Program-made: the position numbers and the translations under genes
The notes under the pieces: model-generated
The model's database searches: none
Seen by the model: the letters and a program-made list of their open reading frames with translations, nothing else
What the model was told of the DNA's origin: nothing
Part shown: positions 14,077 to 51,041 of the stretch, piece after piece
Layout of the letters: every line of letters begins with the position of its first letter
Numbering within the stretch: position 1 is the stretch's first letter
Assembly: GCA_029552745.1 (NCBI GenBank)
Contig: JAKPDK010000042.1
Coordinates: 248,001 to 312,000, forward strand
Length of the DNA stretch: 64,000 nucleotides
Origin: Candidatus Hydrogenedentota bacterium
GTDB taxonomy: Bacteria > Hydrogenedentota > Hydrogenedentia > Hydrogenedentales > SLHB01
Direction: 5' to 3'

Positions 14077-14079
14077 ATA

Positions 14080-14095
14080 CTGAATATCTTTTCAG
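14080..14095. promoter_or_regulatory. Candidate operator CTGAATATCTTTTCAG directly upstream of dinB
   Basis: Near-palindrome 3 nt upstream of the dinB ATG; 15/16 identical to 50809-50824 upstream of the helicase gene. Confidence 0.6.
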
Positions 14096-14165
14096 ATATA
14101 AAGTAACCCAGAAAGAACTATTTTGTCAAGGAGGTGTATTCGTCCCGTACCTTTGGTGATTTTTG

Positions 14166-14222
14166 TTATGTTGGTGAATTGAAGAGAGGATTTTCCAAAA
14201 AGGTTATTGAGAGGAAGGCACC
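14166..14222 (+). repeat. Second dispersed repeat, copy B (reads ELKRGFSKKVIERKAP on the plus strand)
   Basis: gaattgaagagaggattttccaaaaaggttattgagaggaaggcacc aligns with copy A at 4289-4349. Confidence 0.7.
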
Positions 14223-14335
14223 GACGCGTAGCGTCATAGGTAAGTTTGATCTATCTATGCCCCCCTTAGTCCCCCGCACGCGGGGGGATGGCATATCCTT
14301 CCCTCCGATTCCCAAACGGGACATTTTAGTCCCCC

Positions 14336-14492
14336 GTTGTCATTGCGAGGAGTGCCTTCAGGCACGACGTGGCAATCCCCTGGAGTGTCAGGAAGAACCT
14401 CAAGGACGGGAGAGGGCGCACAGCGGTGCACCCCCACAGGGGCACGGGGGATTGCTTCCTCGCTTCGAAGACTCGCTCCTCGCAGTGACAAC
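14336..14492. repeat. Intergenic inverted-repeat element, two arms
   Basis: GTTGTCATTGCGAGGAGTGCC..GTGGCAATCCCC / GGGGGATTGCTTCC..GCTCCTCGCAGTGACAAC. Confidence 0.85.
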
Positions 14493-48140: not shown

Positions 48141-50765
48141 TCACGCAGCGTTGTGTGAGACATCACGGGTGACGACTTGGACGGAGTCCGGCGGCAAATC
48201 GAGCATAAAACCGCGTTTTGGGACCGTTTTGATACACAGGGCTTGTTCGGGCGCAACCTGTTGAATCCGCTCGATGAGTCTCCGTTTTTGGAAATGCATC
48301 TGATTCGGTTCCACAACGGCATCACCCCAGACCTCGCGATAAATGATGTCGTACGGCACGCATTTGCCGGGGGATGCGGCTAGGACGCGGATGAGACGAA
48401 ACTGTTTTTCTTGTAAGGAGACCGCCTTGCCATAGAGAAGGATTCGGTCGGGGCGATGATCATCCACCAAAAGAAGAGGGTGAGTCGCATCCGGTTTGCT
48501 GGGCGTGGGCGAGGCGGAATTTGTGCATTCGTTTGAGACGGGGCTCTTTGTCCGTGCCCATGCCAACAATGCCCGAGCATCGTCTTCATTCATCCATTCC
48601 GAAAGATACTCGGTGGAAAGAGACGCTAAAGCCTCCGCATGATGAAGTCCGCGAGAGGACAACGCGATTACTGCCGAACGTGACAATCGCGGCGAATTAA
48701 GCTGTGCCAGTTCCAACGATTCTTCCCTTACCCCAAGGCGCACCCGTTCCGAAAGCCTATTCAATCGGTGGATAAATCGGGCAGGCGCTGCAAGCGCCAG
48801 GGCAATAGCCGCGGTGGCATCGATCAGCCAACTGACCTGTTCGGCGGCTGCAATAAGTTGTCCCAACAAGACATGGTGGCGGGTTTCGATGTCAAACACC
48901 GGTGTTTCTTCGATCCAATCTTGTAAAAACAAGACGGTCTTGATTGACCGCACCTCGTCATACAGAGGTTGGGCATTGCTATTGCGAAACTGATTCAGCG
49001 GCACGTCGCCTACGAGGGGTTCTTGTTGCGTGGCTTGTTTCAATCGCCCCAGATAATCCCCGTGGTAATACTCTTGAGCACTTAACGGGGTTTGGAGCAT
49101 TCGCCCATCGGGAGTCTGTGCCGTCGCCAGCATCAAATCGATGGCACTCCACTCCCGCGCAACAGAATTTCTCACCCAATCCGCCAATTCCCGAGCTGTT
49201 TGCACGCGAATGCCCTTGGATGCCGCCGCCATCCCCAGAGGAGTTGCTTCCCAGGTCCCCTCCGCCGAACACCGCTCCAACATGCCATTGTCCGCGGCGC
49301 GTCCCAAAGCGTTGCGGGCACGAATCCGCACTTCCTCCGCACTCAACGTCCGCAACCAGATCCATTCCCCGGTTAGCGTGCCGCCGAGAAAAGCCGCCAA
49401 TTCCTCTTCCGACCGGGACACTCCCGCAGCAACCAAGCGGATGATGTGATCGTCAATAGGAGTCTGTCCCACACGCGGTTGTACTTCTTCTCGAGTCCCT
49501 TCCACGTAGCGTCGCCACAGCGTTTCGGCATCAAAAGGAGATTCCGCAACCAAAATAGCACGTCCGAATGCGTTACTAGTTCCATACCGCCCTGCACGTC
49601 CACCCATATTTTCAAACTCGGCGCGTAAAATAGGCGTCCGCCAGGGCATCCCAAACCGTGAATCGTATCGCCACTTCTCCGAAGCAATAAACACATTCTG
49701 CGCCGGAAGATTCATACCTGCCGCAAGCGTGCTGGTAGAGACAATCACGAAAAGTTCGCCGTTCCGAAAAGACTCTTCCACAGTGCGCCGTTCCTCCCTT
49801 GAAAGATCCGCGTTGTGAAACGCTACGCCGCGGGTTAGCAAGTCCACCAGCGCATCCCGCGAGTGGGTGGTTTCTAATTGCCGCAGCGTTTCCACCGCCC
49901 GAGACGCCGCCGGCAACTGAACGCGTTGCGCCAACAGCTCCGCACCGCGCCGGGATTCGGCACGATCGCGCACAAATACGACACATGGTTCGCCACGCTC
50001 CACCAACACCTTCAGATTTTCCATCACCACTTCCCAACGAGAAGCCCCCGGACAATCGATAAACTCTTCCCAGCCCTCCACCGAGCTCCCATACGTCCGG
50101 TATCGAAAACGCCCCGCGTGTAATACCCCATAACGAAGTTCCACAGGCCGCTGTTCCAAACAAACCAGCTCGGCATCCATCCAACGAGCAAGTTCCGTCG
50201 CATTACCAATCACCGCCGACAACCCAATCACCCGCGTGCCAGACTTTATTAACTGGGTGAGCAATATCTCCACCCCTGCGCCCCGCTCTACATCAGATAA
50301 AATCTCCAACTCGTCCGCGACCACCAGTTCTATTTCCTCCTGATGTTCCGGACGCCGCGCCAACAAATGAGCGAACTTCTCATATACCGCAACGGCTATA
50401 TCGAATTTCCCAGCCTCAAAATCAACATCCCACTCGCGATGATCCCGCGTCGACACAATCACCCGAATCCCGTACGAAGCATACTTCGTCCGAAAATCAT
50501 CCCATTTTTCCTCAGCAAGCGCTTTTAAGGGCACCAAATACACCGCTTTCTTCCGACGCATAGCGGTTTGAATCGCCGCCATTTCTCCAATAAACGTTTT
50601 GCCCGATGTCGTCGGCGCCTGTATTAAAATATTCTTGGCGGAGAATAGACCTCCTTTCCGCACAGCTGCCTCTTGCAACGGCAAAAGATGGTTACTCTCG
50701 GTTCTAGTCCATATCTCGATGATTTCTTGGGGTATCCCAAATGGGACGAGTTCATACATGTTCAT
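48141..50765 (-). CDS. Ski2/Hel308-like superfamily 2 helicase with C-terminal OmpR/PhoB-type winged-helix domain (start revised to ATG 50765)
   Basis: IQAPTTSGKTFIGE (I), ADELEILSD (II), GLSAVIGN (III), VSTSTLAAGMNLPAQNVFI and ENMGGRAGRYG (VI); C-terminal RILLYGKAVSLQEKQFRLIRVLAASPGKCVPYDIIYREVWGDAVVEPNQMHFQKRRLIERI..IKTVPKRGFML. SD aggagg 9 nt before ATG 50765. Confidence 0.88.
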   Translation of the reverse strand: MNMYELVPFGIPQEIIEIWTRTESNHLLPLQEAAVRKGGLFSAKNILIQAPTTSGKTFIGEMAAIQTAMRRKKAVYLVPLKALAEEKWDDFRTKYASYGIRVIVSTRDHREWDVDFEAGKFDIAVAVYEKFAHLLARRPEHQEEIELVVADELEILSDVERGAGVEILLTQLIKSGTRVIGLSAVIGNATELARWMDAELVCLEQRPVELRYGVLHAGRFRYRTYGSSVEGWEEFIDCPGASRWEVVMENLKVLVERGEPCVVFVRDRAESRRGAELLAQRVQLPAASRAVETLRQLETTHSRDALVDLLTRGVAFHNADLSREERRTVEESFRNGELFVIVSTSTLAAGMNLPAQNVFIASEKWRYDSRFGMPWRTPILRAEFENMGGRAGRYGTSNAFGRAILVAESPFDAETLWRRYVEGTREEVQPRVGQTPIDDHIIRLVAAGVSRSEEELAAFLGGTLTGEWIWLRTLSAEEVRIRARNALGRAADNGMLERCSAEGTWEATPLGMAAASKGIRVQTARELADWVRNSVAREWSAIDLMLATAQTPDGRMLQTPLSAQEYYHGDYLGRLKQATQQEPLVGDVPLNQFRNSNAQPLYDEVRSIKTVLFLQDWIEETPVFDIETRHHVLLGQLIAAAEQVSWLIDATAAIALALAAPARFIHRLNRLSERVRLGVREESLELAQLNSPRLSRSAVIALSSRGLHHAEALASLSTEYLSEWMNEDDARALLAWARTKSPVSNECTNSASPTPSKPDATHPLLLVDDHRPDRILLYGKAVSLQEKQFRLIRVLAASPGKCVPYDIIYREVWGDAVVEPNQMHFQKRRLIERIQQVAPEQALCIKTVPKRGFMLDLPPDSVQVVTRDVSHNAA

Positions 50766-50808
50766 GAAACATGCCCTCCTATGTTGTAGGGATATTTTAG
50801 ATATTATA

Positions 50809-50824
50809 CTGAAAATCTTTTCAG
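50809..50824. promoter_or_regulatory. Candidate operator CTGAAAATCTTTTCAG upstream of the helicase
   Basis: Palindrome with 7-bp perfect arms; 15/16 identical to the site upstream of dinB. Confidence 0.6.
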
Positions 50825-50878
50825 TTTTCAAGACTATTTCAAAGAGAAAATCAGACAGATCTCTTACAATGCCCAGCC

Positions 50879-51041
50879 GTTGTCATTGCGAGGAGCGGCA
50901 TCCCCCGAAAGCGACGAAGCAATCCCCTCGTTCTTTTGTAGGGGCGCAACACGTTGCGCCCTATCCCGACCCCGCGGGGGTCCCCCTGACACCCCGAGCG
51001 GATCGCCACGTCGTGCCTGACGGCACTCCTCGCAATGACAA
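50879..51041. repeat. Intergenic inverted-repeat element, two arms, with a nested palindrome
   Basis: GTTGTCATTGCGAGGAGCGGC..GAAGCAATCCCC / CGGATCGCCACGTCGTGCC..CACTCCTCGCAATGACAA. Confidence 0.85.
50938..50961. repeat. Nested palindrome gtaGGGGCGCAAC-AC-GTTGCGCCC
   Basis: 9-bp perfect arms. Confidence 0.65.

Follow-up and report, generated by a model that had tools for sequence, protein, structure and literature searches.

The 16-bp palindrome CTGAAAATCTTTTCAG, which lies upstream of a predicted Hel308-family helicase gene in a genome of Candidatus Hydrogenedentota, is very probably the LexA operator (SOS box, CTGAA-N6-TTCAG) of this lineage and would govern the helicase. The palindrome was found in the window, by which we mean the whole stretch of 64,000 nucleotides that was analyzed; the source assembly is 4.36 Mb long and 99.7% complete. 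A first-pass annotation of the window had put the site forward as a candidate LexA/SOS operator of the lineage, and a lexA box, polymerase targets and recurrence across the phylum, all read from sequence, now support that proposal. Two features are absent from that annotation: the box fills the -35/-10 spacer, and the helicase is Hel308-like.

The putative operator and the promoter of the helicase gene

Read on the coding strand, the promoter of the helicase gene is TTGAAA-ACTGAAAAGATTTTCAG-TATAAT, in which the palindrome plus one base makes up the exact 17-bp spacer (Table 1). The -35 element is TTGACA in the helicase promoters of most relatives. The operator ends 43 bp upstream of the helicase ATG, close to the 45 bp estimated in the first-pass annotation, and the start codon is present as proposed there, with AGGAGG about 9 nt ahead of it. 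That annotation had also described a near-copy of the palindrome, CTGAATATCTTTTCAG, directly upstream of dinB, and a 19-mer shared by the two sites and found nowhere else in the window. Both were recovered, the 19-mer ATACTGAANATCTTTTCAG occurring only at 14077 and 50806. Because the window contains 12 palindromes with the same geometry (7-bp arms and a 2-bp loop), the arms of the helicase site alone are not significant; what is significant is that two repair genes share the sequence upstream and, even more, that it recurs in the genome and across the phylum.

Table 1. Features of the helicase and dinB loci, in window coordinates.
Feature	Position	Strand	Remarks
dinB, Y-family DNA polymerase IV, 400 aa	12874..14076	-	
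Putative LexA operator of dinB, CTGAATATCTTTTCAG	14080..14095	.	ends 3 bp upstream of the dinB start
Helicase of superfamily 2, Hel308-like, 874 aa, with an OmpR-type winged helix at the C-terminus	48141..50765	-	ATG at 50765
Trans_reg_C winged helix, about residues 779-855	48201..48431	-	conserved in both phyla
-10 box TATAAT, helicase promoter	50803..50808	-	spacer of 17 bp
Putative LexA operator (SOS box) of the helicase gene, CTGAAAATCTTTTCAG	50809..50824	.	fills the -35/-10 spacer
-35 box TTGAAA, helicase promoter	50826..50831	-	matches the composite pattern with one mismatch (G000:C31:298803-298831, minus)

The match between the two sites could also be a by-product of dispersed intergenic repeats, related segments of which are found near dinB, lexA and the helicase gene. 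However, the repeat alignments begin about 25 to 55 bp from the operators, the copy at the helicase gene is oppositely oriented, and in relatives the operator recurs amid unrelated flanks. We give this explanation next to no probability; as the operators lie outside the repeat alignments, the repeats are ruled out as the source of the shared sequence. The repeats themselves (window 14121-14381 and 50879-51041; L018 2192-2452; L155 1597-2030) are about 160 to 290 bp long, 71-87% identical and contain a TTGTCATTGCGAGGAG-type motif. They adjoin dinB, lexA, recA and the helicase gene and occur elsewhere in the genome as well.

SOS-type sites in the source genome

The pattern CTGAA-N6-TTCAG has 6 copies in the whole 4.36-Mb genome versus 3 for the reversed pattern, so it shows no global enrichment. 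The three intergenic copies are located upstream of lexA, dinB and the helicase gene; the three coding copies fall in a phage-like gene (L003), a phosphoesterase-like gene (L004) and a carB-like gene (L017), the last identified by eye. The first-pass annotation had counted many random coding hits as evidence against an SOS operator, and such matches turned out to be few. The shorter pattern CTGA-N8-TCAG has 39 sites, which besides the SOS-type promoters are mostly coding. When one mismatch is allowed in CTGAA-N6-TTCAG, 115 sites are found versus 93 for the control, too many to interpret genome-wide.

A one-mismatch copy, CTGATAATTTATTCAG, is positioned directly upstream of the gene for a 1034-aa polymerase (C23:56243), for which the general DnaE model outscores the error-prone model, and we thus leave its dnaE1/dnaE2 assignment as DnaE-type. 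At the loci L258 (4239-4260), L050, L163, L164, L166-L168 and L170, the start codon of the DnaE-type gene lies about 6 bp past the end of the -10 box, which suggests a conserved leaderless mRNA across the relatives.

The genome encodes a LexA homologue, whose absence would have spoken against the proposal. It scores 205.9 bits against TIGR00498, above the curated cut-off, and has both the DNA-binding domain (PF01726) and the S24 domain (PF00717); the Ala-Gly cleavage site and the Ser/Lys region were recognized by eye. The putative operator CTGAATGCTTTTTCAG lies 39 bp before the lexA ATG, as expected if lexA is autoregulated. Sites upstream of lexA, recA, imuB/dnaE2 or uvr genes had been named as support for the proposal; recA of the source genome (G000:C106:497842-498798) has no recognizable box, although nearly all relatives keep one. 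The expected sites at polymerase genes were found at dinB in the window and at the DnaE-type gene, and in relatives at dnaE2-like and imuA genes. These sites lend support to the earlier proposal that the helicase gene would be damage-inducible and co-regulated with dinB.

Conservation of the box and its co-variation with LexA

We searched 68 genomes of Candidatus Hydrogenedentota with a composite promoter-operator pattern (TTGACA-N-CTGA-N8-TCAG-TATAMT, up to two mismatches). It gave 73 matches, versus 1 for the reversed control, in 50 of the 68 genomes, and in 43 genomes the gene downstream was the helicase. Behind the other matches in relatives are genes for DnaE2-like polymerases, ImuA-like proteins, two UmuD-like S24 proteins, a Y-family polymerase, RecQ and two DinB/YfiT-type proteins, several of which were assigned by a single domain match or by eye. 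The count of 43 genomes is selected by the pattern, and the promoters of pattern-negative helicase genes were read too for an unbiased count. Among 60 helicase-bearing genomes, 54 had a readable promoter, and the box was within one mismatch in 50 of these; the remaining four (G029, G030, G036 and G040) have variants with two mismatches in that position. All 42 pattern-selected helicase promoters keep CTG and CAG unchanged. The Hel308-like helicase is the most consistent target of the promoter-spacer form of the box.

Other genes of the putative regulon also keep the site. Of the lexA genes in the phylum, 25 were readable; 21 have the box exactly, and all 25 have it when one mismatch is allowed. 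In relatives it is situated just downstream of the -10 element, unlike the spacer site of the helicase gene. Nearly all of the 30 recA genes of relatives have a variant that differs by one base, mostly GTGAA-N6-TTCAG. At dinB, 22 of 30 genes have the box within one mismatch and 13 have it exactly; for random stretches the figures are about 12% and 5%, a background inflated by site-centred loci. SOS-type promoters were also seen in single relatives (L185, L175, L068 and L171) before genes for a DUF5131 protein, a nucleotidyltransferase with weak SMODS/DncV similarity and two C-5 cytosine methyltransferases.

The nearest relatives of the helicase in named genomes belong mostly to Candidatus Hydrogenedentota (53-58% identity). 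One record labelled Nitrospiraceae (L038, JAACEL010000068.1) has a Hydrogenedentota-type helicase promoter and gene, the helicase being 55% identical, and its label is probably wrong.

The site and the LexA protein change together. The usual LexA recognition segment, STNGVNDHL, pairs with CTGAA-N6-TTCAG. In family f6, in which the segment is STNGVVGHI or STNGVAGHI, the box is GTGAA-N6-TTCAC at the helicase gene and at recA, and GTGAA-N6-TTCAG or -TTCAT at lexA. The helicase was also found in a second phylum (records labelled Zipacnadia and WS1), in 17 of the 150 genomes searched. There the helicase promoter keeps its -35/-10 layout, the spacer in most cases being GAAC-N4-GTTC or a near variant, and in the same lineages lexA has GAAC-N4-GTTT and the recognition segment is SPSSVFFHL or SPSTVLFHL. 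GAAC-N4-GTTC is the LexA box of Gram-positive bacteria; here it is the box of the helicase and lexA genes in the second phylum and not that of Hydrogenedentota. At the level of sequence, then, the operator co-varies with the LexA recognition helix, and because the site shifts with the helix while keeping the same promoter position and the same gene, LexA binding is hard to avoid as the explanation.

The Trans_reg_C domain of the helicase is conserved and of a kind with which response regulators typically bind DNA, so one could suppose that the palindrome serves the OmpR-type winged helix of the helicase itself as an autoregulatory site and has nothing to do with LexA. We consider this extremely unlikely, because the identical type of box occurs upstream of lexA, recA, dinB, dnaE-type and imuA genes, because three genomes where the search found no helicase (G050, G031 and G028) nevertheless have the box at lexA or recA, and because the box shifts with the LexA recognition helix. 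A LexA operator is the reading that we keep below.

The Hydrogenedentota motif resembles boxes already described and is thus a variant and not a new kind. A count published in 2021 put the number of distinct bacterial LexA motifs at 17, and the box of E. coli is CTGT-N8-ACAG (PMC8565304). The Myxococcus xanthus box, CTRHAMRYBYGTTCAG (PMC9705874), had been quoted correctly in the first-pass annotation, and so had the fit of the helicase site, which we counted by hand as 15 of 16 positions on the + strand and 13 of 16 read the other way. The SOS systems of E. coli and Myxococcus and the one proposed here share a 16-bp CTG...CAG palindrome, an operator overlapping the promoter, and lexA and polymerase genes as targets, with recA, imuA, umuD-like and recQ genes in relatives. 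In contrast to those systems, the Hydrogenedentota half-sites are CTGAA/TTCAG and symmetric, the most consistent target of the spacer form is a Hel308-like helicase, and recA of the source genome itself is without a box. In the open-access literature we found no LexA motif for Hydrogenedentota and no LexA-binding or expression data for any member of the phylum.

The helicase and its predicted place in the SOS response

The closest sequence relatives of the helicase in the PDB are archaeal Hjm/Hel308 proteins (2zj2, 2.7e-76; next 8.4e-66), followed by Brr2 (2e-38) and DNA polymerase theta (7e-31). An AlphaFold model built from a ten-sequence alignment (mean pLDDT 82.8, pTM 0.75) gave the same picture: its best nine fold matches are all archaeal Hel308/Hjm, with TM scores of 0.84-0.90 by target length over all core domains. 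Walker A, the DE of motif II and GGRAGR are conserved save for single substitutions. By sequence and predicted fold the protein is therefore Hel308-like and closer to Hel308 than to Brr2, Ski2, PolQ or HamB. It misses the curated Hel308 cut-offs by far, however (NF040935, 272.6 versus 1200 bits; NF002654, 386 versus 887 bits), and we file it for this reason as Hel308-like and not as proven Hel308; its biochemical activity may differ from that of Hel308. Archaeal Hel308/Hjm and metazoan HELQ resemble it in sequence and fold over all core domains. It differs from them in being bacterial, in its apparently LexA-controlled promoter, in having DEL[EQ] as motif II, and in an extra C-terminal OmpR-type winged helix, which the alignments with the archaeal matches found do not cover. 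Open-access literature searches for Hel308 with LexA, bacterial Hel308 and Hydrogenedentota repair helicases returned nothing.

Profile searches found the helicase in 59 of the 68 genomes of the phylum (35 of the 38 of good quality), plus a truncated copy in G049. The control search with the profile also matched in two model bacteria, presumably due to other Ski2-type helicases. The distribution over two phyla may have come about by transfer or loss.

PADLOC models of HamB, the helicase of the Hachiman defence system, also match the superfamily 2 core that the two proteins share (best 5.3e-41), so that the gene could be a HamB-type defence helicase under SOS control in place of a Hel308-type repair helicase. 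This is very unlikely. The Hel308-type models give a much better score (386 bits), and Hel308/Hjm proteins take the first nine places among the structural matches. We saw no HamA-like partner next to the gene, which in the window has as neighbours a VWA protein, an unassigned 83-aa ORF and a YfhO protein. Its near-universal presence within Hydrogenedentota is also unlike that of a patchy defence gene.

With the protein read as a Hel308-like repair helicase, we infer LexA binding, induction by damage and helicase activity as follows. In undamaged cells a LexA dimer would occupy the 17 bp between the two elements of the helicase promoter and keep RNA polymerase out. RecA filaments formed on single-stranded DNA would trigger self-cleavage of LexA, and its loss would derepress the helicase, dinB, lexA and the DnaE-type polymerase jointly. 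The helicase would then presumably unwind stalled forks, D-loops or crosslink intermediates, and the OmpR-type winged helix may give it an added contact with DNA.

We think it likely that two bacterial phyla have, as a core damage gene under LexA control, a Hel308-like helicase fused to an OmpR-type winged helix, which would be a counterpart of archaeal Hel308 and metazoan HELQ within the SOS response, and that its operator follows LexA specificity through three or more operator types. These joint shifts in operator and LexA helix would form a natural series in which to see how a repressor alters its binding site yet keeps its regulon. A phylum without laboratory models gains a defined candidate SOS operator and regulon, and a Hel308-like helicase, of a family stated in a 2020 review to be absent from bacteria (PMC7776575), would have a central place in how a bacterium responds to DNA damage.
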